Assembly (NCBI GenBank): GCA_003604975.1
Contig: QZIR01000027.1
Location: 1 to 64,000 of the forward strand
DNA length: 64,000 nucleotides
From: Desulforudis sp.
Lineage (GTDB): Bacteria > Bacillota > Desulfotomaculia > Desulfotomaculales > Desulforudaceae
Reading direction: 5' to 3'
Program-made: the position numbers and the translations under genes
Part shown: in pieces, positions 5,733 to 22,600 of the stretch
How positions within the stretch are numbered: the stretch's first letter is position 1
Layout of the letters: each line of letters starts with the position of its first letter
Notes under the pieces: generated by a model
Told to the model about the DNA's origin: nothing
The model's database searches: none
What the model saw: only the letters and a program-made list of their open reading frames with translations

Positions 5733-7886
5733 TTACATTTGCCGGTTGACCGGCGCCTCGAGGCTGACCAGATACCGTTCTTTCTTTTGGCGGCGGATCA
5801 TCCGGGCATCCACGGAGGATATGCTTTTAATGTCGGCTGCGGACGCCTTGAGTTCGGGGATTCCACAAACCGGGTCTTGGACTCGGCCGGTCAATTCATT
5901 GACCGGCGCTTCCCAAAAATGAAACGTCATGAAAATAGTTCCGGGGGGGACCCGATCGGTTATCCAAGCTCTGGCGTTTATTAAGCCGCGGCGCGTGCAA
6001 ACATGGACCAGATCGCCGTTGCCAATCCCTTTACGGCGGCCGTCTTCAGGGTTGATTTCCACCAGTTCTTCGGGGCCCATTTGGCTTAAGACCCACTCCT
6101 TACGCGTAATGGTGCCGGTGTGATAGTGATAAACGCGCCGGCCGGTCGTCAGCACAAAGGGGTAGTTTTTATCCGGCTTTTCGACAATACCGACAGACGT
6201 TTGCTCCGGATCAATGGGAACGGGTTTTAACTGCGCCTTTCCTGAGGGCGTGAGAAAAACATTGTCGGAGTATAGGATGGGGGTTCCCGGGTGCGCCTCG
6301 TCAGGGCAGGGCCAAAGGATACCGGAGCCGTCATCGAGCCTCTTGTAAGCAACTCCGCCGAACCTTTCAGGGATTAAAAGACGTATCTCCCCCCAGATTT
6401 CCTCCGGTGAGCGATAGGGGAAAGCCGAGGACCCCATTTCCCGGGCAAGTTCACTGAAGATCCGCCAATCGGGCCGCGCATCACCCGGAGGCGGTACGGC
6501 CATCCGTACGCGTTGAATCCTGCGCTCGGTATTGGTAAAGGTACCGTCTTTTTCAGCGGCGCAGGCGGCGGGGAGCACAATCCCGGCAAGGCGGGCCGTT
6601 TCCGTCAGGAAGATGTCTTGCACGATCAAAAGATCAAGCCGCTCCAATGCCTTCATCAAGTATCCCGTGTCCGGCCCGCTTAAGACGGGATTTGCGCCAA
6701 AGACGTAGAGAACCCGGATTTTCCCTTGCATAATGCCTTCACTGATCTCGGTAGCTCTGATGCCGGGTTTCGATGGGGGTTTTACGCTCCAGGCCTGGCT
6801 AAAACGCGTTTGCTTTGGCGAGCTGCCGACGTGCACGTATCCAGGCAAAAAGTCCGGCAGGCAGCCCATGTCACACGTACCCTGGATGTTGTTCTGCCCG
6901 CGTAAAGGGAAGAGACCGGTTCCGGACCTGCCAAGGTGGCCGGTAATAATCGCCAGGTTGGCCAGGGCCAGCACATTGTCCGTTCCGTTGGCGAACTGGG
7001 TGACCCCCATCGCGTAAAGAATCGCCGCTGTTGATGCTTTTCCGTATAAGTGGGCGGCAGCCTGCAGGTCCGCCCGCGGAACACCGGTTATATTTTCTAC
7101 CCGCTCCGGTGTCCACTCGGCCAGGTTTGCGGCAAGGGCGTCGAAGCCGGCAGCCATCCGGTTGACGCGAATGGTATTAATCAGGCCGTCGCGCACGAGG
7201 ATGTGCATTATGCCGTTAATAAGAGGAATATTCCCCCCTACCGGCACCCGCAGCCAGATATCCGCCCGGGCGGCCATTTCGGTATGCCTTGGGTCGGCTA
7301 CAATCAGCTTGGCCCCTCGTTCTCGGGCCTTAATGACGTGTGCGGCTACTAACGGGTGGCACTCGGAAGTATTTGAACCAATGATGAAAATGGTCTCGGT
7401 GACGCTACCAATCTCTTCGATTGTATTGGTTGTCGCCGCGCTACCCAGCGTAGGCGCCAGACCGGCGACGGAGGGGGCGTGACAAAGGCGGGCGCAACAG
7501 TCGACATTGTTGGTGCCCATAACCACCCTGGCAAATTTCTGTGCCGCGAAGCTATCCTCATTAGTGCCCTTAGCCGAAGCGATAAGGGCAAAGGCGTCCG
7601 GATCCTGCCGGCGCACCCTGATCAAATGCTCCGCGATAAAATTCAAGGCCTCGTTCCATGTCGCAGGGACCAGCATCCCGTCTTTCCGGATAAGAGGGGT
7701 TTGAAGCCGACGCGGATCGCCGACATGGTTATACCCATAGTACCCTTTGAGGCAGAGTCCGCCCCGACTCACCGGGTGTTCCGGGTCTGCCTCCACCCCG
7801 ACAATACGTCCTTGCTCAACCAGGAGGTAAAGCCCGCAACCCACCCCGCAGTAGGGACATATGGTTCGCACTCGATGAACGGTCAA
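5733..7886 (-). CDS. fdhA: Formate dehydrogenase catalytic subunit (cysteine type)
   Basis: Molybdo- or tungsto-bis-pyranopterin formate dehydrogenase, about 717 aa, interconverting CO2 and formate at the head of the methyl branch. An N-terminal [4Fe-4S] site (CPYCGVGCG and GLCLKG, including the electron-relay Lys) precedes the molybdopterin domains. The active-site loop reads NNVDCCARLCHAPSVAGL, with Cys where selenoenzymes have Sec, followed by the conserved His. A C-terminal dinucleotide-binding domain (LTTGRRVYHYHTGT) is present. I choose TTG 7886, behind GGGAGGGATC, because the upstream extension to 8000 has no family character. No Tat signal, so cytoplasmic. Confidence 0.9.
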   Translation of the reverse strand: MTVHRVRTICPYCGVGCGLYLLVEQGRIVGVEADPEHPVSRGGLCLKGYYGYNHVGDPRRLQTPLIRKDGMLVPATWNEALNFIAEHLIRVRRQDPDAFALIASAKGTNEDSFAAQKFARVVMGTNNVDCCARLCHAPSVAGLAPTLGSAATTNTIEEIGSVTETIFIIGSNTSECHPLVAAHVIKARERGAKLIVADPRHTEMAARADIWLRVPVGGNIPLINGIMHILVRDGLINTIRVNRMAAGFDALAANLAEWTPERVENITGVPRADLQAAAHLYGKASTAAILYAMGVTQFANGTDNVLALANLAIITGHLGRSGTGLFPLRGQNNIQGTCDMGCLPDFLPGYVHVGSSPKQTRFSQAWSVKPPSKPGIRATEISEGIMQGKIRVLYVFGANPVLSGPDTGYLMKALERLDLLIVQDIFLTETARLAGIVLPAACAAEKDGTFTNTERRIQRVRMAVPPPGDARPDWRIFSELAREMGSSAFPYRSPEEIWGEIRLLIPERFGGVAYKRLDDGSGILWPCPDEAHPGTPILYSDNVFLTPSGKAQLKPVPIDPEQTSVGIVEKPDKNYPFVLTTGRRVYHYHTGTITRKEWVLSQMGPEELVEINPEDGRRKGIGNGDLVHVCTRRGLINARAWITDRVPPGTIFMTFHFWEAPVNELTGRVQDPVCGIPELKASAADIKSISSVDARMIRRQKKERYLVSLEAPVNRQM

Positions 7887-8100
7887 CGTCGATCCCTCCC
7901 ACCGAAACCGGTATATAAAAACAACGCCTGGAACAGGTAAAATATCCCTGCCCAGGGGGGTCCGCTCTTCTCCACAGTGCTCCCCGGTGGTTAATTCCAC
8001 CTCTTGCTGCCAGTAACACTGAGTGTCTTATTTGCTTGTATTGTATGGAGTAAACAACTTCGGCACAACGGCTTCGGGATGAAAAACCCGAGGACCTGGA
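7887..8100 (-). other. Leader region upstream of fdhA, structured but unidentified
   Basis: A non-coding gap of about 214 bases between the small ferredoxin gene and fdhA, larger than other gaps in the cluster. On the coding strand it has a GGTGG-AATTAA-CCACC hairpin, a GC-rich stretch and an AT-rich TTTTATATA near 7912-7920 that could be a -10. A CTAAC-GACA-GTTAG palindrome overlaps the upstream stop codon. I could not match it to a known riboswitch, including the molybdenum-cofactor motif. Confidence 0.35.
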
Positions 8101-8697
8101 CTAACGACAGTTAGACGTAGTGAATGGTATGCGGTCATTTTGTTCAATACCGCCATTCGACAACCCGGCAATTGCGTCTTCCGGGCACACGGGAACGCAC
8201 AGACCACAACCGGTACACCTGTGGGTGAGTATCTTATAGGGGCTGTTATCGGTTCGGTAGGCGACAAAGGGACGTCCCACAATGGCGTCTTCCGGACAGA
8301 CATCAGCACAGAGGTCGCACATCACACATCTCTCCGGGTCTATCCGAAAGAGCGACGGAGTACGACAGAGCCCTGGCGGACAATGTTTTCTTTCGACATA
8401 CTCACTAATGGCATCCCAAGCTTCTTCAAGCATGTTCGCCACCCCATCCCAGACGTTGCGGCCGAAACGGCAGCGAGCAATCATCGGCACCTGACTATAA
8501 CATTGCCGTAGAAAATCCTGATCGGCTTCGGTCGCACAGCCCTTGACAATGCGTTCCACAACATCCGCCGCCGGTTCCAGCGCCAGAGTGCAGGGCAGAC
8601 AGAAGAGCTTAACTTGCCGACCTTGACCGCAGGTACGTTCGTCGGCTAGCTTGCGTAAGCGCTCAGCGCAGTCGGTTACCGTATATCCCGTATCCAT
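8101..8697 (-). CDS. NuoF-C-terminus-like iron-sulfur protein with two ferredoxin clusters
   Basis: A 198-aa protein resembling the C-terminal part of NuoF/HydB-type subunits without the FMN/NADH domain. Residues about 20-115 look like the NADH-4Fe-4S helical domain (CGQGRQVKLFCLPC, then QCYSQVPMIARCRFGRN). Two [4Fe-4S] ferredoxin motifs follow (CVMCDLCADVCPEDA near 124 and CTGCGLCVPVCPEDA near 160). It may connect formate dehydrogenase to an NADH-oxidising partner such as the NuoEF module encoded at 25029-27402. It lies 5 bases after the response regulator gene. The domain call is by eye and the role is inferred. Confidence 0.7.
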   Translation of the reverse strand: MDTGYTVTDCAERLRKLADERTCGQGRQVKLFCLPCTLALEPAADVVERIVKGCATEADQDFLRQCYSQVPMIARCRFGRNVWDGVANMLEEAWDAISEYVERKHCPPGLCRTPSLFRIDPERCVMCDLCADVCPEDAIVGRPFVAYRTDNSPYKILTHRCTGCGLCVPVCPEDAIAGLSNGGIEQNDRIPFTTSNCR

Positions 8698-8702
8698 ATC
8701 GG

Positions 8703-9479
8703 CTACCCCTCTTCTCCTTGTTTCTTACGTGGATATGCACCGCCACTTGTACGCAGCCGTCCCCCCATCAGCCCCAGGCGCTCCTTCAGACTTTGAACGC
8801 GGCCCCGGCTAACGGAGACCACACTGTTGGCGACATCGTTCATCACTATAGAGTAAGCACCGTTGACGTCCGGCCGGATCTCCTTGATTTGATCGATGCT
8901 AATCAGGTATGCGCGATGCGAGCGGAAGAACCGGTCGCTGGGCAAGCGTTGTCCTAACTGCTCCAGGGTATACCTTACGCATACCCGGTCGGTACGGGTG
9001 CAGAGAAAGGTACGGTTTTTTGCGGCATAGGCATAAACGATATCTTCGACAGCAACTGGTACCGCCACTCCGTTCCGCCCGCCTATTAACCATTTCAGGG
9101 TACAGGACTCGTTTTCAAATACCTCTTGAATCCGGGCAACGGTGTCCCGCAACCGGCTATCGCTGATGGGCTTAAGAAGATAGTCAACGGTCTTTAAGCC
9201 AAACGCCTTGTATGCGTGTTCTTGGAATGCCGTAACAAACACCACGCGCGGCGCATTGGGCAACTGTCTCAGCCTGGCCGCCAGTTCCATTCCACTCATG
9301 CCCGGCAGTTCGATATCAAGAAACAACACGTCGTAATCAACCGCGTTGATCAATTTCCAAGCATCGATACTGTTGGTCGCTTCACCGATGACTTCAATAC
9401 ATTCATGTTTAGAAAGCAGATAGCGTAACTCCATCCTCGCAGGATGCTCGTCATCCACAATCAGCGCCTTTATCCGCAC
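8703..9479 (-). CDS. LytTR-family response regulator
   Basis: A two-component response regulator, about 258 aa. An N-terminal receiver domain has the acidic pair DDE near residue 10, phospho-acceptor Asp in DVLFLDIELPG near 55, the FVTAF Thr and the LLKPIS Lys. A C-terminal LytTR DNA-binding domain (about 145-245) has RSHRAYLISIDQIKEI. The reading frame extends to GTG 9488, but that codon overlaps the SD; GTG 9479 sits eight bases after GGAGG and is preferred. No sensor kinase is in the window. Its place between fhs and the formate dehydrogenase genes suggests it controls, or is coregulated with, the pathway; this is inference. Confidence 0.9.
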   Translation of the reverse strand: MRIKALIVDDEHPARMELRYLLSKHECIEVIGEATNSIDAWKLINAVDYDVLFLDIELPGMSGMELAARLRQLPNAPRVVFVTAFQEHAYKAFGLKTVDYLLKPISDSRLRDTVARIQEVFENESCTLKWLIGGRNGVAVPVAVEDIVYAYAAKNRTFLCTRTDRVCVRYTLEQLGQRLPSDRFFRSHRAYLISIDQIKEIRPDVNGAYSIVMNDVANSVVSVSRGRVQSLKERLGLMGGRLRTSGGAYPRKKQGEEG

Positions 9480-9515
9480 CGCCTTCACCTCCTTTCCCCA
9501 AATCGCAAGCGAACT

Positions 9516-11189
9516 CTAGAAAAGCCCCACTACGTTGCCAAGCGCGTCAATATCGACCTTTTCCGCCGCCGGCATCTTCGGCAGGCCGGGCATTGTCATG
9601 ACCTTTCCCGCCAATACCACCAGGAACCCCGCCCCGTTTGCGGGCCGCAATTCACGCACTGTCAGGTTCCAGCCTGTGGGACGGCCCAAGAGCTTGGGGT
9701 TATCGGAAATCGAGTTTTGCGTTTTGGCTATGCAAATCGGCAAACGATCCAAGCCGAGACGGACAAAGTCCTCTATTTGTCGTTCAGCGAGATCGGTGTA
9801 GGCGACGCCGTCGGCCCCGTAGACCTTGCGTGCCACAATTTCAATCTTTTGTTGAATTGGCAGGTCCCAATCATAGAGTTGATTATACGAAGCTTCATTG
9901 CGGTCGATGATCTCCAGTACCTTTGTCGCCAGTTCTTCGCCTCCGGCCCCGCCGCGTGCAACGACCTCGGAAACCGCTGCGGGAACCCCTGCTTCCAGGC
10001 AATGCTCTTTGATAAGCTCCAACTCGGACTGATCGTCAGTGGGGAACCTGTTGATGGCCACTACCACCGGCAGGCCGAAATTATGCCTGATATTGTGCAC
10101 GTGCCAGTCAAGGTTGGGCAACCCGCGCCTGAGGGCTTCGGGATCGGGGCGCCCGACATCGGCCAGCGCCACTCCGCCATGCAGCTTCAGTGCCCGGACG
10201 GTAGCTACAAGGGCTACCGCGTCAGGTTTGAAGCCTGCATAGGGGCACACGATATCAAAAAATTTCTCAGCCCCAAGATCGGAGCCGAAGCCCCCTTCGG
10301 TGACCACATAATCCGCCAGCCCAAGCGCCGTACGAGTCGCCATGATGGAGTTGTTGCCGTGCGCGATGTTCGCAAACGGGCCGCCGTGAATGAAAGCCGG
10401 CTGGCCTTCGATGGTCTGCACGAGGTTGGGCTTCAAGGCGTCCTTCATCAGGACCGCCAGTGCCCCGGCCACTTTAAGCTCCCGTGCGAACACGGGCGCC
10501 CCGCTCTGGGTATAGGCGACCAGGATTCTGCCCACGCGCTCCTTGAAGTCATCCAACCCTTCTGCCAGGCACATCAAGGCCATGATTTCCGAGGCCACGG
10601 TGATATCAAAGCGGGCCTCCCGCGGCACGCCATCGGTTTTTCCGCCCAAACCGCACACGATATTCCTCAATGCACGGTCATTCATATCCAGTACACGCGG
10701 CCAAACAATCCTTCTTGCATCGATCTGCAGCTCGTTGCCGTTATAAAGGTGGTTGTCTATCACCGCCGCCAGAAGATTGTGCGCTGCGGAGATGGCGTGA
10801 AGATCACCGGTAAAATGCAGGTTAATGTCCTCCATGGGAACGACCTGTGAATACCCCCCGCCGGCCGCTCCGCCCTTGATGCCAAAGGTGGGGCCCAGCG
10901 ACGGCTCCCTGAGGCAGAGCATGACCTTCTTACCCAAACGACCCAAAGCCTGGGTAAGACCGACCGCGGTGCATGTCTTCCCCTCTCCGGCAGGCGTCGG
11001 CGTAATGGCCGTTGTAAAGATCAACTTCCCCCGCGGGGCATCTTTCACTCGTTGGCAAACATCCATACTTACCTTGGCCTTATACTTTCCGTATAGCTCG
11101 ATGTCGTCCATTCCAAGACCCAGATCGGCAGCCACATCCACTATCGGCTTTAGCTTGGCGCTGCAGGCGATTTCGATGTCCGGTAACAT
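9516..11189 (-). CDS. fhs: Formate-tetrahydrofolate ligase
   Basis: ATP-dependent activation of formate to 10-formyl-tetrahydrofolate, the second methyl-branch step. The 557-aa length is normal. The P-loop TPAGEGKTCTAVGL lies near residue 64. Further family signatures are LREPSLGPTFGIKGGAAGGG near 90-110, GDLHAISAAHNLL near 130, and FATEGGFGSD-like VVTEGGFGSDLGAEKFFDI near 300. ATG 11189 follows GGGGGGAG. It is 48 bases downstream of metF in the same transcript direction. Confidence 0.97.
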   Translation of the reverse strand: MLPDIEIACSAKLKPIVDVAADLGLGMDDIELYGKYKAKVSMDVCQRVKDAPRGKLIFTTAITPTPAGEGKTCTAVGLTQALGRLGKKVMLCLREPSLGPTFGIKGGAAGGGYSQVVPMEDINLHFTGDLHAISAAHNLLAAVIDNHLYNGNELQIDARRIVWPRVLDMNDRALRNIVCGLGGKTDGVPREARFDITVASEIMALMCLAEGLDDFKERVGRILVAYTQSGAPVFARELKVAGALAVLMKDALKPNLVQTIEGQPAFIHGGPFANIAHGNNSIMATRTALGLADYVVTEGGFGSDLGAEKFFDIVCPYAGFKPDAVALVATVRALKLHGGVALADVGRPDPEALRRGLPNLDWHVHNIRHNFGLPVVVAINRFPTDDQSELELIKEHCLEAGVPAAVSEVVARGGAGGEELATKVLEIIDRNEASYNQLYDWDLPIQQKIEIVARKVYGADGVAYTDLAERQIEDFVRLGLDRLPICIAKTQNSISDNPKLLGRPTGWNLTVRELRPANGAGFLVVLAGKVMTMPGLPKMPAAEKVDIDALGNVVGLF

Positions 11190-11237: not shown

Positions 11238-12179
11238 CTATGGCCGGGGATAAAGCCCTGCCATGCTAACAATCTCCGGCACGGCTTCTTCCCAGTTAAT
11301 AGCCATAATGTGTACGCCGCTGACTCCTGCTATGGCCCGGACCTGATTGATAATTTCCAAAGCGATGCGCTGACCTTCCCGGAGTTTGTCAGAGGCCTTC
11401 TCCATACGGCGGATCAGTTCTTCGGGCACTTTCATCCCTGGGATCCGGCTCATGTAACGCAAAGCGCCGGCCGACCTCGGCGGGGTAACCCCGGCCAGAA
11501 TGAAGGTCTTCTTGTGCCAACCCGCAGCGCATACAGTATCCATCCAACGAGCAAAGCCTTCAACATCGTAAACGACCTGTGTTTGAATAAATTCGGCACC
11601 AGCCATCACCTTTTTACCCAGGCGGAGCACGCGAAGCTCAACGGGACCGGCGAAGGGGTTTTCCACGGCCCCCACGAAAACCCGCGGGGGAGCCTTTATT
11701 TCTTCACCGCATATAAACAGCCGCTCTTCCCGCATTTGCCTCACTGTTGCGGTCAATTGCACGGAATCAAGATCAAACACGCCTTTGGCCTCCGGGTGGT
11801 TGCCAAAGCGCTGGTGGTCACCGCTTAAGCATAATACATTGCGAACGCCCAGGCTTGCCGCTCCAAGGAGGTCAGACTGTAGGGCAATCCTGTTACGGTC
11901 CCGCGTGGTCATCTGCAGTACCGGTTCCCCACCGCTGTTCAAAACGTGTACTGCGGCCGCAAGGCTGCAAAGTCGCACGACCGCCGTCTGGTTGTCGGTA
12001 AGGTTCTGCGCGTCGGAATAGTCCTTTACCAAAGCAGCCAGCTGTTGAATCCTGCGCCCGTCAGCACCCTTGGGCGGCCCGATCTCGGCAGTCACTGCAA
12101 AGTGACCCGCCCTAAGGACCTTCTCCAGCCTGCTTCCGGTGCGGGCCTCAATCACTTTAGCGGCAGGGCCGATAGACAT
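11238..12179 (-). CDS. metF: Methylenetetrahydrofolate reductase, MetF subunit
   Basis: TIM-barrel flavoprotein reducing methylene-THF to methyl-THF, 313 aa. The N-terminal strand VTAEIGPPKGAD and NLTDNQ near 60, the NVLCLSGDHQ strand near 114 and the C-terminal GVHIMAIN match the family. ATG 12179 follows GGGAGGAAG and lies inside the 3' end of metV (28-base overlap), so the two subunits are translationally coupled. With MetV and MvhD upstream this resembles the acetogen MetFV arrangement rather than the stand-alone enterobacterial enzyme. Confidence 0.95.
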   Translation of the reverse strand: MSIGPAAKVIEARTGSRLEKVLRAGHFAVTAEIGPPKGADGRRIQQLAALVKDYSDAQNLTDNQTAVVRLCSLAAAVHVLNSGGEPVLQMTTRDRNRIALQSDLLGAASLGVRNVLCLSGDHQRFGNHPEAKGVFDLDSVQLTATVRQMREERLFICGEEIKAPPRVFVGAVENPFAGPVELRVLRLGKKVMAGAEFIQTQVVYDVEGFARWMDTVCAAGWHKKTFILAGVTPPRSAGALRYMSRIPGMKVPEELIRRMEKASDKLREGQRIALEIINQVRAIAGVSGVHIMAINWEEAVPEIVSMAGLYPRP

Positions 12180-12844
12180 GGCATTACTTCCTCCCTAATC
12201 ACCTTGCGCATTGCTCCTGAACCGGAATGAGCCCAGTTCTTCGGCGGCCTTATCCTCCTCAGGCTATCGAGACGCCCCTGCTTCTTCAGGCGATGGTAAA
12301 TCATCTCCCAGGCGCAAGGCAGGTCCGTGCCGGCTTCGCACCTGCCGTCGACCGACCCGCCACACGGGCCGTTTAAGAGTCCCTTAGCACAACGGGTCAC
12401 GGGACAGATGCCGGTGGTCTCCGCGAGGATACACTCTCCGCACATGGCGCAGCGTTCCTCCCATACTCCAGACATCACCGTGCCCCCTCCGCCAACGGTG
12501 TCAACCCCAGGAATGACCATCACGGTCGGGTATCTTTCCGCGATAAACTGCACTCCAACCCCACAACCCAGAGAGATGCACGCATCTGCCTTCTCCATCA
12601 AAGCATCCAGCGGCACAAGGCACTCGTTGTCACATTGCCTGAAAACGGTAACCTGAGCGATTTCAAACGGAAAGCCCCTCTTCTTGCCGGCAATCTCAAG
12701 AAGCTGCGCGACACAGGAAACCTCTTTTCGCCCCCCCGATTGACATACCGTCACACACTCCTGGCACCCTGCCACCACCAGTGACTTCATTCCCCCAACC
12801 AGTGCCAGAATTGACGAAACGGTCTTAGGACGTGCGAGAATCAA
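12152..12844 (-). CDS. metV: MetV, zinc/iron-sulfur partner of methylenetetrahydrofolate reductase
   Basis: MetV-type protein of about 230 aa that supports MetF in acetogens. It is rich in cysteines: GCQECVTVCQSGG near 22, QCDNECLV, LGCGVGVQ, then a C-terminal zinc-finger-like region with CAMCGECI, CPVTRCAKGLLNGPCGGS and CEAG. The TTG at 12844 is chosen because GGGAGGGG lies eight bases upstream and the earlier frame to 12991 reads as mvhD shadow (Trp/Arg-rich). It overlaps the mvhD end by about 20 bases and metF by 28. Confidence 0.88.
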   Translation of the reverse strand: MILARPKTVSSILALVGGMKSLVVAGCQECVTVCQSGGRKEVSCVAQLLEIAGKKRGFPFEIAQVTVFRQCDNECLVPLDALMEKADACISLGCGVGVQFIAERYPTVMVIPGVDTVGGGGTVMSGVWEERCAMCGECILAETTGICPVTRCAKGLLNGPCGGSVDGRCEAGTDLPCAWEMIYHRLKKQGRLDSLRRIRPPKNWAHSGSGAMRKVIREEVMPCLSALPLK

Positions 12845-13271
12845 GCTGTTCCCCTCCCTCCCGCTCTTGACCGTTAAACGCCGGGCCAAGGTCGCGGATG
12901 GTCTCCACCAGTTCCGCCATAAAGCGGGCAAACGGTGCCCCCATGCCTGCCGAAACGTAAAACATGTGCAGCCGTTCAGGCTCGATACCAATGTCCGCCA
13001 GGCGGTTTTTCAGAATCTCGACCCTTTTTCCCGCTCGCAGGTTTCCGCTCTGGTAATGACAGTTGCCTTTAAGGCACCCGGCTACACAAACCCCGTCCGC
13101 GCCCTTGACAAAAGCGTCTAAGATGTGTTCTTCACTGATGCGGCCCGAACAAGGCACCCTGATAATCTGGATATTAACCGGGTACTGGAGGCGGAGCACG
13201 CCGCTGAGGTCCGCCGCGCCGTAGGCGCAGTGGTGACAGCAAAAGGCAAGAATCTTTGGTTCAAAACTCAA
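12825..13271 (-). CDS. mvhD: MvhD/HdrD-type iron-sulfur electron-transfer subunit
   Basis: A small (about 148 aa) [2Fe-2S] protein of the MvhD family, which normally hands electrons to HdrA in heterodisulfide-reductase complexes. Cysteines are CCHHCAYGAAD near 9-17, RVPCSGRI near 43 and GCLKGNCHYQSGN near 70. TTG 13271 is preferred because GGAGGGGG is seven bases upstream; the frame is open to GTG 13289. In acetogens the metFV-mvhD genes accompany hdrABC. Here mvhD sits directly between acsE and metV with no hdr gene anywhere in the window. Confidence 0.88.
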   Translation of the reverse strand: MSFEPKILAFCCHHCAYGAADLSGVLRLQYPVNIQIIRVPCSGRISEEHILDAFVKGADGVCVAGCLKGNCHYQSGNLRAGKRVEILKNRLADIGIEPERLHMFYVSAGMGAPFARFMAELVETIRDLGPAFNGQEREGGEQLDSRTS

Positions 13272-13295
13272 CTTCCAACCCCCCTCCACCTAGGT

Positions 13296-14096
13296 TTACT
13301 TAGGGGACATTTTTTTGACACTCTGGAGAAAGGCGTCGCTGTATATCTCCTTGTTAAGTAGGACACGCCCGGCGGCAACCGTTTCTACCAACTGGGTGTC
13401 AAACACGTCGGCAATGGCGGCGTCAAGCCCGGAGGCCATGGCCATGCTCGCAAAAGTCCGGTTAAGCAGCAAGCGGTGGGGACAGCCTTGCGAGACGTTG
13501 CTTAAACCGACCACCGTCCGCGGGGGTGGATCAGCCAGCGTTTTGATTTGCCGTATGGTCTCGAGAACCTCCACGGCATGCTCCTGGCCAACATTTACGG
13601 GAAGTACCAAAGGGTCAATAAACAGATCACTTACGGAAAAACCCAGTTCGTCGGCTGTTACTACAATTTCCATGGCCATCGCCAGACGGTCGGCCGCGTC
13701 CCTTGATACGCCTCGCCGGTTCATGGTTAGCGCAATCAGGTATGCCCCGTAGTCCCTGGCCATCGTAAGGTATTTCTCCAGCTGTTCGCGCTCGGCTATC
13801 GTTGAATTGATAATAGGCCGGCTCTTGGTGACTGCCTTAAGCCCGGCCTCGATCGCCGGGAGCTTGGCCGCGTCTATACACAGGGGGGTATCTACGACTT
13901 CTTCCACCGTTTTTACCAACCACGGCATTACAGCTGCAGGGTCAGCCACGGCCGGTCCGGTGTTTATGTCGAGATAGGTCGCGCCTGCTTCGGTCTGGGT
14001 CACGGCAAGCCGCTGGATTGGTTCAGGATTCTTCGCCTGAATAGCCTCGGCCACATCGCGGAAAAGCCCGTTGATTCGTTCCCCGATCAAAATCAT
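13296..14096 (-). CDS. acsE: Methyl-THF:corrinoid iron-sulfur protein methyltransferase
   Basis: TIM-barrel methyltransferase moving the methyl group from methyl-THF to Co(I) of CFeSP, 266 aa as usual for AcsE. Pterin-binding features include TYLDINTGPAV near 41-50, DTPLCIDAAKLPAI near 70-83, RPIINSTIAE near 93 and the GLSNVSQGCPHRLLLNR strand near 198. ATG 14096 follows AGGGGGAG and overlaps the acsD stop as ATGA. Downstream is mvhD after a 24-base gap. Confidence 0.97.
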   Translation of the reverse strand: MILIGERINGLFRDVAEAIQAKNPEPIQRLAVTQTEAGATYLDINTGPAVADPAAVMPWLVKTVEEVVDTPLCIDAAKLPAIEAGLKAVTKSRPIINSTIAEREQLEKYLTMARDYGAYLIALTMNRRGVSRDAADRLAMAMEIVVTADELGFSVSDLFIDPLVLPVNVGQEHAVEVLETIRQIKTLADPPPRTVVGLSNVSQGCPHRLLLNRTFASMAMASGLDAAIADVFDTQLVETVAAGRVLLNKEIYSDAFLQSVKKMSPK

Positions 14097-15046
14097 AAAG
14101 CCATCTCTCCCCCTGCTAACACCTTAACGTGCTCCCTTACCACACGGGTTGCTTCAGGATGAAGCATCACCACCATATCCGCCCCCGCTTGGAGAAGGGT
14201 CCCGGCCGTAAGAGCCTCCCAAGCCACACCCTGCACGACCCCGTCGGTCGGACCGGTCTTGGCTTCTTTGGCCCGCCATGCCTCAAAACCGCAAAAGACA
14301 ATCATCGGTAACGCCAGGCTTGATTCTCCCTGGAGCGCCGCCAGGCGCACCCGTTCCATCACGGAATAGGTGTATTCAAGGCCGTAACCCAGCCCTCCGG
14401 TTGTCGGGTCCATGACAATCTGCGTTTGCGGTACTCCTAAATCATTAAGCAAAACGCAGATTTGTTTTTGCATATTGACGTCTACCGGACTCTGGGCAAT
14501 AACCAGATGTCCGTTGACCATGGCGGCCGCTGCGATCGTGCGGTAGTTGTCGCTGGTGACGGGCCCGATCAGGCACCGCCGGCCAGCACAGGTTTCGCTG
14601 ACCTTCTGCAAAACGACGTTATCCTTGGCGTCGTTGCCGCACCCCAACACAACCAGCGGTACGCCTGTCGCATCGAGGACATCCCGGGCCAGCGTCGCAC
14701 AGGCTTCCGGAGAAGCGTCGCTGAGTTCGGGGTCGGCGCCGCGCAGCCGCAGGCAGATGAACTCCGCTCCCCACTCCCGGGCGCAGTGACGCGCCCACTC
14801 CACCGGATCGCCCGCCACCGGGCCGAAAATGTTTTCCAAAGGCGCCGGCCAGAGTTCCGGGACTACGTCCCACACTTCCATACCTATCACGGGCAGATGC
14901 CCGGACGGCCCGTCAAAACTTAGAAACGGCAGGGTGGACGCCCCGCCCACCTGAAGGAATCGCTGCCCGTTCCCCGCAACGCCGGCCCCGATTTCTACCT
15001 CACTGATCCTGCACGGAAACTTTTCGCGGTGAAGCTCAAAGGACAC
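14093..15046 (-). CDS. acsD: Corrinoid iron-sulfur protein, small subunit
   Basis: Small (beta) subunit of CFeSP, a TIM-barrel that packs over the corrinoid and helps present it to AcsE and AcsB. The 317-aa length is normal. Family segments are PFLSFDG near 42-48, HCAREWGAEFICLRLRGADP, VPLVVLGCGN, DPTTGGLGYGLEYTYSVMER near 220-240 and a C-terminal MVMLHPEA. GTG 15046 follows AAGGAGGGAG. It overlaps acsE by four bases and lies 15 bases after cooC. Confidence 0.95.
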   Translation of the reverse strand: MSFELHREKFPCRISEVEIGAGVAGNGQRFLQVGGASTLPFLSFDGPSGHLPVIGMEVWDVVPELWPAPLENIFGPVAGDPVEWARHCAREWGAEFICLRLRGADPELSDASPEACATLARDVLDATGVPLVVLGCGNDAKDNVVLQKVSETCAGRRCLIGPVTSDNYRTIAAAAMVNGHLVIAQSPVDVNMQKQICVLLNDLGVPQTQIVMDPTTGGLGYGLEYTYSVMERVRLAALQGESSLALPMIVFCGFEAWRAKEAKTGPTDGVVQGVAWEALTAGTLLQAGADMVVMLHPEATRVVREHVKVLAGGEMAL

Positions 15047-15061: not shown

Positions 15062-15838
15062 TTACTGTAAATTCGTGCTTTGCTGAAGCAACTGATCCAT
15101 CACGGGCTCGAAGCAGCGTACTACCGGCGCATTTGCGGGAATATGCAAGAGCGGTTTGCCGCCGGCGTCATGCTCGGCAATAAGAGCGTCATATGGCAAC
15201 ACCCGCACATAATCAAGGTTGGTCGCGGCGATTTCCTCACGTAAAGCCGTACTGAGCTTGTTCTGTGCCTTGCAAACAAGGAGGCATTGGCGCTTGATCC
15301 GTAACCCAAGTTCCGCTGCCACCCGCGCCACCCGTCCGGCGGAACGCACCCCCCGCACGCTGTTGTCGCTAACAACGATGAGCAGGTCAACAAGATCGGT
15401 CGTCCGCCGGCTCAGGTGTTCGAGACCGGCCTCATTATCCAAAACAGTGTAACCGTAATTCTTATCCAGCCTCTCCATGACCCCGCGCAGCATGGCGTTG
15501 GCATAACAGTAGCAGCCGGAGCCCTCCGGGCGCCCCATAGCAACAAGATCCACCTCGGCGCCGTCGGCATCCATCAACGCCTCCCGTACACGGAAGTCCA
15601 GGTAGGAAACCTTATCAATCCCTCCCGATCCTTGGGAAGGGCCAATAATCTGACGCAGGATTTCCATCAAGTCCGCGCATGGGGCTACCCCCAGCGCTTC
15701 ACCGAGGTTGGCGTTCGGATCGGCATCCACTGCCAGGACCGGCCCCAGACCGCGACGGATAAGGTAACGAATGACAAGCGTGGCGACCGTCGTCTTGCCT
15801 GATCCACCCTTACCCGCTACCGCGATTCTAAATCCCAC
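15062..15838 (-). CDS. cooC: CooC-type nickel-insertion ATPase
   Basis: A 258-aa MinD-superfamily ATPase acting in nickel insertion into CO dehydrogenase/acetyl-CoA synthase. It has the deviant Walker A GKGGSGKTTVA at residues 9-19, DADPNANLGEALG near 41, a CYCYANAM metal site near 112 and LDNEAGLEHLSRR near 135, all of which match CooC closely. GTG 15838 is the start. It sits between acsC and acsD, as in several acetogens and sulfate reducers. The paralog at 3756-4511 differs most around the metal site. Confidence 0.92.
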   Translation of the reverse strand: MGFRIAVAGKGGSGKTTVATLVIRYLIRRGLGPVLAVDADPNANLGEALGVAPCADLMEILRQIIGPSQGSGGIDKVSYLDFRVREALMDADGAEVDLVAMGRPEGSGCYCYANAMLRGVMERLDKNYGYTVLDNEAGLEHLSRRTTDLVDLLIVVSDNSVRGVRSAGRVARVAAELGLRIKRQCLLVCKAQNKLSTALREEIAATNLDYVRVLPYDALIAEHDAGGKPLLHIPANAPVVRCFEPVMDQLLQQSTNLQ

Positions 15839-15946: not shown

Positions 15947-17290
15947 TTAGTTGGCAGTATAAGATCGCAGGAAACCTGGTAGCGCCGCCGCTTCACGCGG
16001 TCCGACTAGGACATCCCAGCCCGAAAGCTCTGCCAGCCGCCCGCTTAGCACCGCCACGTAGCCCGGAATGACTACCTTCCGGTGTTCCACCTTTTCCCCG
16101 ATGGCCGTCTTCTCGAGCGCCTCGGCTATCTGTTCGGGGCCGAACTTGCCGGAGGCCCAGGCCGTAAGGACGGAGGTACCGTCGGTGTCAACTGTCACAA
16201 GGTAGGCACCCACTCTGCTCGATTCGATCTCGTTGCCCACCGAGAAATAGGTAAGCGAAAAGTTGGTGGTTACCAGGACCGGGGCGTCCGGACCGGGATT
16301 GCCGATAGCGTAGCAGGCTGCCTGGACCTGGATCGGCTTTTGCGGATCGGTGTAGATGTCCTGGCGGAGGGTTAACAACGGCAGGACGACTGCCGGATCA
16401 ACGGTATCCAACACAATCATGCTCGCGTACTTGGCAATGCACGTTGCAGCCGTTAGGGCGGTGAGGTATGCGTCCCGGTTATCGCCAACCGAAGCGAGAA
16501 CGGGAAACCCAAAGGGACGGAACCGCTTTTTAATAGCCATCCGTCTTATTGCGGTTGCCGCGCGCAGGACATCTCCCGCAGCTTTCGCAGGCACGTGCAA
16601 TACAATGTCCTTATAGCCGTTGCCAGTCACCTGTTCGCTGAGCGAGGACAAGCCAGCGAGATCCCCCGCCGTGACGACCAGCGGGCAGCCGTACTCCTTG
16701 GCCAGAGCTGTCATCTCCCGCCAGTTCGCCTCGGCAGCACCCCAGAGAAGGGGACGCTTTGAACCCACAATGGCAAGGGCCGCGCGCATCGCCCCGGGAT
16801 CTTGGGTCACCAGGGTCAACGGCAGCGGGCTGTTCGCCTGGACCAATTCCACCGTCTTCACAAAAGAAGCCGAATCCGAACCGGTTTGGCGAATTGCAAT
16901 CGAGTTAATGCGCATGGTGATCCCCACCCGCTCGAATGAAAGGGCCTGAACGGCGCGCAACCGTTCCGTCAGTTCGGCCTCGGGCAAATCATCCCGGACC
17001 TCGATGGCCACCGCCGTCGGATGGTAAAATGTCTTTTCATGGCGAAAGAGGACAAGTTCGCCCCCCAGCTCGACGGCATACTCACCTTGGCCCACCGTCA
17101 CCAGGCGGATCGGGGGTTCAGCGGCCGCGCCCAAGGTCTCACGGGCCTCATCCGACGCCTGCGGGCAGTCGTCCAGAGAAGTCTTGCCGGCCGCGAGGGC
17201 CATCGCAAAAGCCAGACACGTTGCAAACCCGCATTCCCGGCAGTTTGTTTTCGGTAATAGCTTGAAAATCTGGAGTCCGGTTAACGCCAT
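15947..17290 (-). CDS. acsC: Corrinoid iron-sulfur protein, large subunit
   Basis: Large (gamma) subunit of CFeSP, 447 aa. An N-terminal [4Fe-4S] domain (TNCRECGFATCLAFAMAL, with a fourth Cys in DDCPQ near 42) feeds electrons to the corrinoid. A central TIM barrel and a C-terminal corrinoid-binding domain follow (TTNFSLTYFSVGNEIESS near 343-360). ATG 17290 follows AAGGAG at a nine-base spacing. It lies 20 bases after acsB and 108 bases before cooC; that gap shows nothing obvious. Confidence 0.96.
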   Translation of the reverse strand: MALTGLQIFKLLPKTNCRECGFATCLAFAMALAAGKTSLDDCPQASDEARETLGAAAEPPIRLVTVGQGEYAVELGGELVLFRHEKTFYHPTAVAIEVRDDLPEAELTERLRAVQALSFERVGITMRINSIAIRQTGSDSASFVKTVELVQANSPLPLTLVTQDPGAMRAALAIVGSKRPLLWGAAEANWREMTALAKEYGCPLVVTAGDLAGLSSLSEQVTGNGYKDIVLHVPAKAAGDVLRAATAIRRMAIKKRFRPFGFPVLASVGDNRDAYLTALTAATCIAKYASMIVLDTVDPAVVLPLLTLRQDIYTDPQKPIQVQAACYAIGNPGPDAPVLVTTNFSLTYFSVGNEIESSRVGAYLVTVDTDGTSVLTAWASGKFGPEQIAEALEKTAIGEKVEHRKVVIPGYVAVLSGRLAELSGWDVLVGPREAAALPGFLRSYTAN

Positions 17291-17310: not shown

Positions 17311-19497
17311 CTACATAATTGGTTCCATGCTCAGGGCGGGATGTTGTGTCTCTTCCAGGAAGGGTAGAATCTCGTCCACCAAAGTGCCCACCGTTTCATC
17401 GGCGATGCGATCGATGAGATCGGGAACGCCGATTTCCGCCCCCCGGCGGATGAGGCCCTCCCGGAGGAACTCCTTAAGCTGGCGCGGCATCCAAACCACC
17501 CGCGCCAGACCGTCGTCGGCCTGAATAAACCTGCGGCTGATGACATATGCCCTTGCCAGCCCCATAAAGCCGGGAATCTGTTCTCCGCCGCCAACCATGC
17601 CGGCCAGGGTAGAAAACCGCATCCCCAGAGGTGTATCCCCCGTGTACTCACGGTTAACGATAAAGATCCCGTTAGCCTCCGGCAGAACGGCACCGATAGC
17701 TTCAAAGCATCCGCACGAAGTCATCGGGTCCTCCATCATCGAATAAAGGCTCAGGGACGTGATCTTGCCCTGGGTGTAGCGCTGCATGGCGGCGTTGACG
17801 CCGCTGTACTGCCCCCGCGTCTCGTCGATGCACGTTCCGATGGCGACAGGCTGATTGGGCCCGGTCTGCTTGAGTTCATATGACGCCCGGGCGTCGAGCC
17901 AGTTCACCGCCCCGCAGAGCCCCAAACGTTCAGGCGTTACAATGCAGATATGAGACGGGGCGAACGATTGACAGAGGCTGCAGGTGTAGAAGACGTCGAC
18001 CGCCTCATCGGTTAGCGCATCGAGGCGCTCATCACGCCGCCGGTAGACGGATCGAGCCTTTTCCTGCTCCGCGAGCGCCCTCTCGGGCGTAGTGTAGAGC
18101 GTGACCCGAACTTTGTCGACGAGCGAGCCGAACTCGGCCTTGACCCTGTTGGCCACCACCGCCCCGATATGTTGCAGGCGCAGGCCGGCGGCGAACGCTT
18201 TCTTGGACACCCTGATTCTGACGATGTCGCGTTGGCCGATGTGGACCACGCCTTCCAGGTAGTTGACGAAATAATGCAGACGCCTCTCGATAACCGGTTC
18301 GAACTCCTCTTTCATCTTTCGCCCGGCCACTTCAATGACCAGACCCAGGGGAAGAGTATCGCCCTCTTTCACCTCATCGAGATCGGGCCCGATGACCTGG
18401 ACATGGCCGTCCTCCACCTCGCCCATCGGCCGTGTCACGAGCAGTTCAAAAGCCGTGGACCGGCCGGCGCCGATCTCCACAAAGGTCTCATTCCGCCGGA
18501 TGATTTCTCCCTCGAAGGCCGGACCAAAGGCCACGGGCACTTCCACATCGGCTGCCGGCACCTTGAGTCCCCGCACCTCCACCGCCCTGGCCACAATACG
18601 ATCATGTGGCACACGGGCCACGACATGTTCATAGGTGCAAATACCGTAGGGCAGGATTTCGGGGATGTCGGTGTCGGCAACAACCGGAAAACCGAAGTTT
18701 ATCGCTCCCGCCGCATTGGCATACCATTCGTCGGTCACCGGACCCAGGGCCAGAAGAAAAGCAAAGACCCGGGTTTTGTTATAAGACAGCACCCGGCGGT
18801 AGTCGCCCGGCGTTACGCCACCGAAGGACAGGGCCACCCGCGTGGCGAATCCGAGGGAGTAAATGTGGGCGCAAACTTCTTCCCCGAAGGGAACCAGGCG
18901 CGTCGGCCAACCAAGTTGGACGTCGGCGCCGGCCAGTTGCTCCGCGAAACTGGTTCCGTCGGCTCGCCCCGCCATGAAAACGTAAAGGCTTTTCTGCTGC
19001 ATTTCGCGGGCTAGTTTTACCGCTGTAGGGACATCCGGGGCGGAACCCACCACGGCGGCAAACCCCGGCGCCCGTCCGTCCACGAACTCGATCCCGCGTT
19101 CCCTCAGGATTACGTCGTCAGCCGCACCCAGCCAGATACCCTCGACCGGGGAGGGCCCGGTTACATACCTGAGAGCCTCGATGATTTCCTCCGCAAACAG
19201 CGTGGCCATCCCGGCGTCAAGCACGGGTCCAAGGTATGGGGTCCAGCGGGCTTCCGCCGGCAACGGGGGAAGAAGTTCTTTCGCCAGGGCCAGGACCGGC
19301 CCTATCTCGGAAAGCCGGGTCACTTTCCGCCCGGTAATGCCATAAATGACCGGAAGGTAGTACCCGGTATTGGGCAGTTCCACGGGGTGAGTCGCACCCA
19401 GGATCTCCATGGCGCTTTTCAGCTTTTCTTCGGCCCGACGTATAATGCTGTGCGCTCCCCGAATAGCCGCCGTGGCAATTATCCTGGACAAGGTCAT
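17311..19497 (-). CDS. acsB: Acetyl-CoA synthase (CODH/ACS alpha subunit)
   Basis: Nickel enzyme assembling acetyl-CoA from CO, the CFeSP-bound methyl group and CoA; about 728 aa, as usual for bacterial AcsB. The A-cluster ligands are visible: CSLCQSFAPSHIC and LGLCG near 505-530 and the Ni-bridging CGC (DPMTSCGCFEAIG) near 595. The N-terminal CODH-contacting domain (TGYYLPVIYGITG near 47) and the middle domain are intact. ATG 19497 directly abuts AAGGGGGG, so TTG 19491 (six-base spacing) may be the true start. It is separated from folD by 172 bases without clear signals. Confidence 0.96.
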   Translation of the reverse strand: MTLSRIIATAAIRGAHSIIRRAEEKLKSAMEILGATHPVELPNTGYYLPVIYGITGRKVTRLSEIGPVLALAKELLPPLPAEARWTPYLGPVLDAGMATLFAEEIIEALRYVTGPSPVEGIWLGAADDVILRERGIEFVDGRAPGFAAVVGSAPDVPTAVKLAREMQQKSLYVFMAGRADGTSFAEQLAGADVQLGWPTRLVPFGEEVCAHIYSLGFATRVALSFGGVTPGDYRRVLSYNKTRVFAFLLALGPVTDEWYANAAGAINFGFPVVADTDIPEILPYGICTYEHVVARVPHDRIVARAVEVRGLKVPAADVEVPVAFGPAFEGEIIRRNETFVEIGAGRSTAFELLVTRPMGEVEDGHVQVIGPDLDEVKEGDTLPLGLVIEVAGRKMKEEFEPVIERRLHYFVNYLEGVVHIGQRDIVRIRVSKKAFAAGLRLQHIGAVVANRVKAEFGSLVDKVRVTLYTTPERALAEQEKARSVYRRRDERLDALTDEAVDVFYTCSLCQSFAPSHICIVTPERLGLCGAVNWLDARASYELKQTGPNQPVAIGTCIDETRGQYSGVNAAMQRYTQGKITSLSLYSMMEDPMTSCGCFEAIGAVLPEANGIFIVNREYTGDTPLGMRFSTLAGMVGGGEQIPGFMGLARAYVISRRFIQADDGLARVVWMPRQLKEFLREGLIRRGAEIGVPDLIDRIADETVGTLVDEILPFLEETQHPALSMEPIM

Positions 19498-19669: not shown

Positions 19670-20545
19670 TCAGGTCGCCAATATGCTGGTTGATGCGGCT
19701 ACCTGCGATTTCGCCGCGAGAATGGTGTTGGCCAGGAGCATGGTTACGGTCATCGGGCCGACTCCACCGGGAACAGGAGTGATGGCCACGGCACGCGGGG
19801 CGACGCTATCCCAGTCGACGTCTCCCACCAGGCGTCCGTCCACACGATTGATTCCCACATCCACCACCACCGCCCCCTCCTTAACCATCTCGCCGGTGAT
19901 CATCCCCGGACGACCAACGGCCACCACGAGAATATCCGCCTGCCGGGTCACGGATGAAGGATCCACGGTACGGGAATGACAAATGGTTACGGTGGCGTGA
20001 CGCTGCAACAACAACAAGGCGGTAGGTTTGCCTACGATGTTGCTGCGGCCGATCACAACGGCATGCCGCCCGGCGATATCGATACCCGACCGTTCGAGGA
20101 TGGCGATAACCCCGGACGGCGTGCACGGCGTCAGGCAAGGCTCGCCGATCTGCAGCTTCCCGACGTTCAGGGGATGAAAACCGTCTACGTCTTTTTCCGG
20201 TCTAATAGCCCGCGTTACCGCCCTGGCGTCCAGGTGGTCCGGAAGGGGCAGTTGGACAAGAACGCCGTGAATGCCTTCGTCTCCGTTAAGCTGATCAAGA
20301 AGCCGAAGCAGATCATCCATTTGGGTGTCAGCGGGCAGACGGTGTACCGTTGACCGGATACCCACCTCCTGGCAGGCGTGCTCCTTGTTGCGCACATATG
20401 TCTGTGACGCCGGATTGTCCCCGACCAGCACCACCGCCAGCCCCGGCGGCGCCCCCCGCTGCGCGGCGAAAGACCCTGCTTCCCGAACCAGTTCCGATCG
20501 TATTTGAGCTGCTATCGCCTTCCCATCCAAGATGTGTGCCGCCAT
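19670..20545 (-). CDS. folD: Bifunctional methylene-THF dehydrogenase/cyclohydrolase
   Basis: Converts formyl-THF via methenyl-THF to methylene-THF, 291 aa. Conserved features: [14 protein letters not shown] with the catalytic Lys near 55, [13 protein letters not shown] near 98, [16 protein letters not shown] near 118, [14 protein letters not shown] near 165 and the C-terminal [19 protein letters not shown] 20545 follows AGGAGG. No fchA is in the window, so FolD presumably does both steps. It is embedded between acsA and acsB, with a terminator-like hairpin between acsA and folD. Confidence 0.96.
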
Positions 20546-20665: not shown

Positions 20666-22600
20666 CTAACCGGTTGCGATTTGCCGCCGCATCTCCATAT
20701 CAAACAAAACTCTTTCCCTTGCCTGCTCGATCCCAAGCGCCCGCCGGGCCGCATCGATGTACTCGATCAACCGGCGCGCCATCGCCATTGGATCGGGCTC
20801 GAAGAACCACTTACCCCCGGTGAGCGCACTGATACCCTCAAAAAGGAAACTGGAGAACTCCTTGCTTCCAAGGGTCGGGAATCCGACGCCAAAGCCGACG
20901 GTAATACCACTGGAAACGAAATACTGGCCGATGGCTATCGCCTTTTCGCTCATCCACTCAGGAGCGCACCCGACAACAGGCAGGTTGGCCAAATCGTCGC
21001 CAAGCCCGCCCTGGCGCACCATTTCGGTCGCCGCCACCAGCAGGCGGCTGTTATCGACGCAGGAACCGCAGTGCAACACCGGCGGCATGCCTACCGCTTC
21101 ACAAACCTCCCGCAGTCCTGAACCCGCCAGGTCGGAGGCCTCGGGCACCAGCAGTCCTTCCTTGGCGCAGCTGATAGCCGCACAACCGCTGGTCAACACC
21201 AGCACGTTATTGGCGATCAGCTCCCTCACCACGGTGGTATGCAGGTACCCATCACGTACCCGCGGGTTGGAACAGCCCACCAGGGCCGCAATCCCCCGGA
21301 TACGGCCGTTGATGATGTTTTCGTTAAGCGGGCCGTAGCCGGTACGGAATCTCCCGCCAAGCATGTAACGAATGGACTCGTGGGAAAACCCCGCCACCAT
21401 ATCCATTTCCTCCCGCGGAATCTCCACAATACCACGCCGAGAATAGTTATTGATCGCCCTGAGAATAAGTTCTCGCGCCGTCTCCTCGGCATGCTCCGGA
21501 TGAAACTCCACGTGGGTGACCCCCCGGATGCGCGCCCGCGACGAAGTGGTGACAAGCTCCGTGTGGTAACAGGCCGCAACATTGGCCAAACCCTGCATTG
21601 CACACTGGACGTCGACCATCATGAGGTCAACGGCGCCGGTAACGATGGCCAGTTCTTGCTGGAGGACGCTTCCCGCCACCGGAATGCCCTTACGGAGCAG
21701 GAGTTCGTTGGCGGTGCAACAAATACCGGCGATGTTGATCCCCTTTGCTCCGACACTTCGCGCCCTGGACAGGAGTTCTTCGTCCCGGGCCATGTCCACG
21801 ATAACCATAGGCAGCAGCGGCTCATGCCCATGAACCACGATATTGACGTGATCCTCCCGTAAGACACCCAGGTTAACCTTTCCACGTAAAGGGTAAGGTG
21901 TTCCGAAGAGGACGTCCTGCAGTTCGGTCGCGGCCATCGAGCCGCCCCAGCCGTCGGCCAGCGCAACCCTCATCCCCTGAAGCATTAAGTGCTCAAAATC
22001 CTGATCTACACCCACGCTGGTACGATGGAGCATCTCCACGATCTCCCGATCAATGCCGCGGGGGACAACCCCGAGACGGCGCCAGATCTCCTGCCGCTTG
22101 GCGGGAGCCCGGCTTGGGAAAATCAATTCCCCTTCCTGCTTGCCGAATTCGGCAAGCAGAGATTCCGCCACCTTACGTGCCAGTTCTTTGGTATCACCAT
22201 TCGAGGAAACTCCGAGAACTTCCGCAAGTTCCCGGAGTTTTGCCGGGTCACGTATGGTGTAACCGGTCGCTTCACCGTCGAGTATCTTAAGAAAAGTCAA
22301 CACGATCTCCCGGGCATGGTCACTGTGAGTGGCCGTTCCGGCGGCAATCATCCGGCCAAAGTTCCGTGCCGTGATGGTGGCGGGGGTGGCTCCACAAATG
22401 CCCGTGTCGGCCCCGGGACCTTCTTCCCTGACATGGCAGGGGCCCATATAGCAGATCCGGCAGCAACTGCCGTCCGCGCCAAATTTGCAAACCTTACGTT
22501 CCCGGATCTGGTCAAAGATAGTAACGGTACCATCACGGGACGCCTTGGCGATCATTTGCCGGCTTGCCTGGCAGTCGGTAAACTGGTCCTCCCTTTTCAC
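20666..22600 (-). CDS. acsA: Carbon monoxide dehydrogenase catalytic subunit
   Basis: Ni-Fe-S CO dehydrogenase (CooS/AcsA), 644 aa, reducing CO2 to CO for acetyl-CoA synthase. The D/B cluster Cys are in SCCRICYMGPC near 46-56 and GICGAT near 67. C-cluster ligands appear as the GHEP His, GICCTANE, GCAAISCAKEGL, HCGSCVDNS and VGCAPEWMSEKAIAIG, the last including the catalytic Lys. GTG 22600 has AAGGGGATG upstream. It is encoded 18 bases after the nuoG-like gene, so the CODH and the NADH-linked module are probably coexpressed. Named acsA for its setting; cooS is an equivalent name. Confidence 0.96.
   Translation of the reverse strand: MKREDQFTDCQASRQMIAKASRDGTVTIFDQIRERKVCKFGADGSCCRICYMGPCHVREEGPGADTGICGATPATITARNFGRMIAAGTATHSDHAREIVLTFLKILDGEATGYTIRDPAKLRELAEVLGVSSNGDTKELARKVAESLLAEFGKQEGELIFPSRAPAKRQEIWRRLGVVPRGIDREIVEMLHRTSVGVDQDFEHLMLQGMRVALADGWGGSMAATELQDVLFGTPYPLRGKVNLGVLREDHVNIVVHGHEPLLPMVIVDMARDEELLSRARSVGAKGINIAGICCTANELLLRKGIPVAGSVLQQELAIVTGAVDLMMVDVQCAMQGLANVAACYHTELVTTSSRARIRGVTHVEFHPEHAEETARELILRAINNYSRRGIVEIPREEMDMVAGFSHESIRYMLGGRFRTGYGPLNENIINGRIRGIAALVGCSNPRVRDGYLHTTVVRELIANNVLVLTSGCAAISCAKEGLLVPEASDLAGSGLREVCEAVGMPPVLHCGSCVDNSRLLVAATEMVRQGGLGDDLANLPVVGCAPEWMSEKAIAIGQYFVSSGITVGFGVGFPTLGSKEFSSFLFEGISALTGGKWFFEPDPMAMARRLIEYIDAARRALGIEQARERVLFDMEMRRQIATG

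Follow-up and report, generated by a model that had tools for sequence, protein, structure and literature searches.

An mvhD-metV-metF operon without hdrA, headed by nuoEFG and conserved among Desulforudis relatives: a candidate variant of the Hdr-type methylene-THF reductase

Introduction

For both acetogenesis and the reverse pathway, it is an open question which electron donor serves methylene-tetrahydrofolate (methylene-THF) reductase and whether energy is conserved at this step (PMC8760232, PMC9430772). One arrangement, known from Moorella thermoacetica and Sporomusa ovata, is the Hdr-type (type IV, 6S) reductase HdrCBA-MvhD-MetVF (PMC9430772, PMC8760232). Here we ask what MvhD does in a locus where it is encoded with MetV and MetF and no Hdr subunit lies alongside. 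The locus is in the window, by which we mean the whole 64,000-nt stretch of Desulforudis sp. DNA that was analysed. Among the members of this lineage are autotrophs that dominate certain deep-subsurface waters (PMC11480212). In such waters, the methylene-THF step runs near the energy limit. Two MetVF systems in one organism, both with MvhD and only one with HdrA, form a natural comparison that separates the roles of HdrA and MvhD; if MvhD works without HdrA, it would be a general connector of redox modules and not a subunit of HdrA.

Results

A compact mvhD-metV-metF block without hdr genes

The initial annotation had placed mvhD directly between acsE and metV, overlapping metV, and the sequence bears this out. 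The mvhD gene (12825-13271; like all window genes below, on the minus strand) is separated from acsE by 24 bp of unbroken sequence and overlaps metV by 20 bp. It encodes a 148-aa [2Fe-2S] electron-transfer subunit whose likely start is the TTG at 13271, with an alternative GTG at 13289; a GGAGGGGGG-type ribosome site precedes the TTG, and the MvhD ortholog of a related genome (G012) starts at the same residue. The protein matches FlpD (PF02662) at 166 bits over 123 of 123 model positions and has the conserved cysteines, as expected for the MvhD/FlpD family, and its closest solved chains are the MvhD subunits of methanogen hydrogenases.

Directly 5′ of mvhD, acsE (13296-14096) encodes the methyl-THF:corrinoid protein methyltransferase (NF005719, 303 bits, above the cut-off). 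On the other side, metV (12152-12844; 230 aa, TTG start; PF12225, DUF5981, MTHFR C-terminal, 117 bits) overlaps by 28 bp with metF (11238-12179; methylene-THF reductase, PF02219, 129 bits), which is followed by fhs (9516-11189; formate-THF ligase, PF01268, 858 bits) and a gene for a LytTR-type response regulator (8703-9488; PF00072 and PF04397). A sequence search for a solved relative of MetV returned none. We noticed no gene for a sensor kinase next to that of the regulator.

MetV and MetF encoded together, and with MvhD, are two defining characteristics of the Hdr-type (type IV) reductase that are present here; HdrA (plus HdrBC) in the same cluster was not found in the parts of the contig searched. 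The window lies on a 100.6-kb contig (C6) of a genome (G000) of 3.14 Mb in 75 contigs that is 99.4% complete. Searching the whole genome with an HdrA protein gave no homolog on C6, a genome search for the CCG/HdrB domain gave none there, and when the genome's own HdrA, HdrB and HdrC were run by tblastn on the window plus most of the remaining C6, there were no matches. These searches confirm, for the window, the earlier statement that MvhD is encoded with MetVF and no Hdr subunit alongside. Because acsE and mvhD are joined by an unbroken 24 bp, and because relatives repeat the gene order, the absence of hdrA is not due to an assembly gap or a contig end.

HdrA is encoded elsewhere in the same genome

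The description of the system as lacking HdrABC stands for the window and fails for the genome, in which hdrA-mvhD-metV-metF is found on contig C17 and additional HdrA or HdrCBA sets on C2, C4, C11 and C46 (hdrCBA on C2 and C46). MvhD itself is encoded at seven places. One of these places, on contig C17, belongs to a second and complete CODH/ACS operon that is distantly related to the window set and has the order cooS, acsB, acsC, RACo-type activator, cooC, acsD, acsE, hdrA, mvhD, metV, metF. Its hdrA, for a 993-aa protein, occupies the acsE-mvhD junction, exactly where the window operon has none. The window and C17 proteins compared are 42-60% identical (MvhD 53%, MetV 45%, MetF 60%). Contamination as the origin of the C17 operon was ruled out, since a second genome of the same genus (G001) has both operons; its C17-type proteins are 85-94% identical to those of the window genome. 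The initial annotation had named, as a finding that would overturn its reading, an hdrABC operon elsewhere whose HdrA binds the window MvhD. Of the two halves of that finding, the genome supplies the first, the genes.

The hdrA-less operon is a conserved unit

We compared 108 loci in which mvhD lies next to metV. In 97 of these, hdrA is directly 5′. The other 11 comprise seven with mvhD-metV-metF-fhs-lytTR and no hdrA (two of the seven being one contig), two contig starts, L143 and L147. The hdrA-less block is found in G000, G001, G012, G002, G004 and G006, and MetV of the window type is present in exactly 6 of the 113 genomes of the host's class that were scanned, spread over three genera and two families; the MetV of the closest named relative, 'Desulforudis sp. 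J_13', is 97% identical. In every hdrA-less operon fhs lies directly 3′ of metF, and the LytTR regulator is kept 3′ of fhs. The corresponding MetVF proteins group together in a single clade with SH-aLRT 100, clearly separated from the C17 type; this rules out that the window operon arose as a damaged C17 copy. An HdrA-containing operon is also present in each of the five near-complete genomes that carry the hdrA-less one.

The block is constant even where its surroundings are not. In the hdrA-less operon of G002 and G004 (genus g2; L197, L198, L141, L144), mvhD-metV-metF-fhs-lytTR is unchanged despite a different acsB-acsC-acsD-acsE set, 36-43% identical to that of the window, with a short AcsB, a 765-aa CODH-like protein and AcsE before AcsD. 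The pattern looks like an exchange of the CODH/ACS core, with the mvhD-metVF-fhs-lytTR block staying in place. We conclude that the hdrA-less operon is well supported as a conserved unit.

Some further loci were considered as hdrA-less and rejected: L085 and L087 are at contig starts, and L143 has hdrA-mvhD several kb 5′. Separately, L147/L202 (G052:C212, 35-7171) contains a possible independent acsE-mvhD-metV-metF run without hdrA, with hdrCBA directly 3′ on the opposite strand, converging; its mvhD probably encodes a selenoprotein.

MvhD of the hdrA-less operons keeps its cysteines and differs at two positions

The window MvhD retains Cys 17, 18, 21, 47, 72 and 77, and the conserved cysteines are kept in all HdrA-less MvhDs. 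Most other residues conserved among HdrA-linked MvhDs are likewise unchanged. Two positions stand out. Arg or Lys occupies position 119 in 86 of 97 HdrA-linked metV-type MvhDs, in 15 of 18 other HdrA-linked ones and in the two methanogen chains compared; all HdrA-less MvhDs have Pro, Leu, Ala or Ser there. At position 61, 93 of the 97 have Glu, and all HdrA-less proteins have Val or Ala. The HdrA-less MvhDs have also diverged faster than their own MetF: pairwise identity between distant genomes is 56-62% for MvhD versus 68-69% for MetF, and between G012 and the window genus 72-74% versus 79%. When the same genomes are compared by their HdrA-linked copies, the values are 63-67% for MvhD versus 60-64% for MetF. 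Both the residue changes and the divergence fit the loss of one binding surface, as judged from about four independent sequences. The residue changes could have arisen once in an ancestor and have no functional meaning.

These data bear on the possibility that HdrA is supplied in trans, with the window MvhD docking on the C17 HdrA, or on the HdrA of the C46 or C11 sets, to form a normal Hdr-type reductase. Because an HdrA is always encoded elsewhere in the genome, this is a serious rival. C17 supplies HdrA together with its own MvhD, MetV and MetF, each near-complete genome with the hdrA-less operon has a counterpart of this kind, and the residues typical of HdrA-linked MvhDs are mostly intact in the window type. 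However, positions 61 and 119 are altered in all HdrA-less MvhDs, MvhD outpaces its MetF in divergence in the window type and does not in the C17 type, and the C17 HdrA already has a cognate MvhD. On balance we consider supply in trans unlikely, although far from negligible.

Several observations on MvhD stand apart from this comparison. In 52 of the 97 HdrA-linked, metV-linked MvhDs (L041-L173), the codon at position 21, for the last Cys of the first motif, is replaced by a stop codon, apparently TGA, and the residue is therefore probably selenocysteine; all HdrA-less MvhDs have Cys and no stop codon at this position. The MvhD of G002, a closed genome (L141, G002:C1, 5′ of metV at 9957), has an in-frame internal duplication, VDEEFILRAFAGG, between its CSGR and ADGV motifs. 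On contig C22 of the window genome (L022:8463-9287), one gene joins an MvhD to an NADH_4Fe-4S domain of NuoF type, and this fusion gene is followed by genes for two [FeFe] hydrogenase large subunits of the group A6 type. This natural fusion indicates that MvhD can be wired to an iron-sulfur domain of the Nuo/Hyd type.

A nuoEFG module heads the gene run

The mvhD-metV-metF block lies toward the end of a minus-strand gene run of ~18 kb that has nuoE-nuoF-nuoG at its head. The upstream end is nuoE (26917-27402; NuoE/HydC-like, PF01257, 149 bits), followed by nuoF (25029-26972; NuoF/HydB-like, PF01512 and PF10589) and nuoG (22619-25063; NuoG-like with a molybdopterin-family domain, NuoG 325 bits versus Fdh-alpha 186 bits). 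Between this module and acsE are cooS/acsA (20666-22600; CO dehydrogenase, PF03063, 548 bits), folD (19670-20545; PF02882 and PF00763), acsB (17311-19497; acetyl-CoA synthase, PF19436, PF03598 and PF18537), acsC (15947-17290; PF03599 and PF04060), cooC (15062-15838; its product shares 42% identity with the C17 CooC) and acsD (14093-15046; PF03599, 133 bits). All in one direction, nuoEFG and the mvhD-metVF block stand some 10-14 kb apart in this run, with seven genes lying in between. A terminator and promoter scan of the run performed near chance and was given no weight.

Genes nuoE-nuoF-nuoG head the hdrA-less operon in G000, G001, G012, G002 and G004, that is, wherever the operon end is readable; the G006 contig ends before the nuoEFG position. 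In the stretches read around the HdrA-containing copies of G000, G001, G002, G004 and G012, there are no nuo genes. The initial annotation offered a NuoEF module as an alternative electron partner; this alternative is favoured by the gene neighbourhood, and it is incomplete in that HdrA is also encoded elsewhere.

The window NuoF has an N-terminal [2Fe-2S] domain, an FMN domain, an NADH_4Fe-4S domain and a C-terminal 2x[4Fe-4S] domain, and among solved structures it matches best the HydB subunits of bifurcating hydrogenases, with about residues 44-627 of its 647 aligned. Judged by sequence, NuoF is HydB-like as expected of an electron-bifurcating HydBC-type core, and the core may bifurcate electrons. 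In a small tree (bootstrap 81, SH-aLRT 97 for the grouping), the window NuoF joins those of two delta-proteobacterial loci that have nuoEF beside metVF, while the NuoF paralogs encoded on C49 and C4 of its own genome fall elsewhere. The NuoF of G002 and G004 falls outside this group and is not the sister of the window NuoF, which suggests that nuoEFG has been inherited less strictly than metVF.

The NuoG proteins of the window and G012 lack, in the alignment, the formate dehydrogenase active-site Cys/Sec (GFKGLDVL in the window versus RLCHAPSV in true FdhA), and lack a GltD domain; the one NCBIfam glutamate-synthase match to the window NuoG covers only residues 6-109, the N-terminal ferredoxin part. 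The NuoG of G002 is longer, with the ferredoxin part doubled, and the active-site Cys is likewise absent. Its active site rules out NuoG as a formate dehydrogenase. By sequence, NuoEFG is not of that type, lacking the active-site Cys, and is not an Stn transhydrogenase, lacking GltD.

Beyond the LytTR regulator gene, the run continues with a gene (8101-8697) for an Fe-S protein with NADH_4Fe-4S and 2x[4Fe-4S] domains (PF10589 and Fer4), which aligns to residues 491-627 of HydB, its C-terminal part, and with fdhA (5733-8000; TIGR01591, 769 bits, above the cut-off), for a formate dehydrogenase with an active-site Cys (RLCH). The small Fe-S protein, a possible extra electron wire, is present in G000, G001 and G012; we looked for it in G002 and G004 (the D. 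audaxviator-like genus) and did not find it. Given that these two have no detectable copy, it is not an obligatory partner.

MvhD might alternatively be fed by ferredoxin, or by FdhA through the 8101-8697 protein, with neither NuoEFG nor HdrA. The positions of the 8101-8697 gene and fdhA 3′ of fhs-lytTR are consistent with such an input, as is fdhA after lytTR in G004 and G006, and purified two-subunit MetVF accepts electrons from ferredoxin in vitro (PMC8760232, PMC8515935). However, G002 and G004 lack a detectable 8101-8697 protein, and since purified MetVF takes ferredoxin electrons without MvhD, the retention of MvhD suggests a different donor. We regard this input as improbable. It is more improbable still that the arrangement is degenerate, with hdrA deleted and mvhD a non-functional remnant: hdrA is missing precisely at the junction it occupies on C17, and the G002 MvhD carries an internal in-frame duplication, but the frames are open, all cysteines are kept, distant members from two families remain 56-62% identical, and the MetVF clade is separate and well supported.

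Discussion

The structure of the operon, its conservation, the absence of HdrA, the second operon with HdrA, the cysteines of MvhD and the type of the Nuo subunits are direct observations. The reading we favour, to which we give slightly less than an even chance, is that the operon encodes a conserved variant of the Hdr-type methylene-THF reductase in which NuoEFG replaces HdrA and MvhD is the adaptor to MetVF. NADH, possibly together with ferredoxin (by bifurcation or confurcation at the HydB/HydC-type core), would deliver electrons to NuoF/NuoE, from which they would pass through the Fe-S chain of a non-catalytic NuoG acting as an electron conduit to the [2Fe-2S] cluster of MvhD, then to the Fe-S clusters of MetV, and finally through the MetF flavin to methylene-THF. 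During acetate oxidation the route may be reversed. NuoEFG would thereby take on the role that HdrA plays in the Moorella-type complex and in the system of the C17 operon. Contact between NuoEFG and MvhD, the direction of electron flow and any bifurcation are what we infer.

A counterpoint to the replacement of HdrA by NuoEFG is that all near-complete genomes with the hdrA-less operon have HdrA beside another mvhD-metV-metF. NuoEFG, separated from mvhD by seven genes, might also have another function: Sporomusa encodes a NuoEF/GltD-NuoG complex beside metVF, and this was purified as a transhydrogenase in its own right, Stn (PMC7483475). A more specific version of the proposal, which we put forward tentatively and think doubtful as a whole, is that a bifurcating or confurcating HydB/HydC-type NuoEFG acts with MvhD-MetVF, the docking of MvhD having switched from HdrA to a Nuo Fe-S subunit, and that this enzyme operates beside the classical HdrA-MvhD-MetVF enzyme, perhaps with the two running the pathway in opposite directions.

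Comparison with known systems

A limited search of the literature found no description of an mvhD-metV-metF set without HdrA. One of the closest published clusters is of the kind present on C17: Ca. Desulforudis audaxviator and Ca. Acetocimmeria pyornia have an acs cluster with HdrA-MvhD-MetV-MetF (PMC8671834), the only kind described in the available part of that report. The window shares the order acsE-(hdrA)-mvhD-metV-metF with this cluster but, unlike the HdrA-containing one described in that part, has no hdrA between acsE and mvhD. Carboxydocella thermautotrophica has two metVF sets, one with hdrCBA-mvhD (PMC6085454), and so resembles the window genome in having two MetVF systems, one of them Hdr-linked; in the excerpt available, mvhD is mentioned only with the Hdr-linked set, whereas the Hdr-free set of the window keeps mvhD.

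An X-type NuoEFG-MetFV reductase has been proposed from gene order in other bacteria (PMC8515935). The window operon is similar in that NuoEFG is encoded 5′ of MetV-MetF and in that its NuoF groups with two such delta-proteobacterial loci. It differs in its MetVF, which falls on the HdrA-linked branch, the NuoEF-linked MetVFs being a separate branch, and in having MvhD, which is not beside metV in the NuoEF-metVF loci compared. A further difference is the distance of some 10-14 kb between nuoEFG and metVF in the window. As a side observation, L171-L173 (three genera, one family) have a run fdhA-nuoE-nuoF-metV-metF, with no MvhD or HdrA and a distant MetVF branch, that resembles the proposed X type. 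Like the StnABC transhydrogenase (PMC7483475), the window has NuoE/NuoF and a NuoG-like large subunit near metVF. StnC combines GltD and NuoG in one protein with an NADP(H) site, whereas no pyridine-nucleotide/GltD domain came up when the window NuoG was scanned with Pfam.

The Hdr-type reductase of Moorella and Sporomusa is matched by mvhD directly 5′ of metV and metF inside a CODH/ACS cluster, and in the tree the window MetVF lies among HdrA-linked MetVFs, outside the NuoEF-linked branch. The window block departs from this type in lacking HdrA, HdrB and HdrC, in positions 61 and 119 of MvhD, and in the nuoEFG genes at the head of the run. Because the defining HdrA is absent from the cluster, the system is not, by gene content, a full member of the Hdr type (type IV). 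Nevertheless, the phylogeny of MetVF and the presence of MvhD indicate that it derives from the Hdr-type kind.
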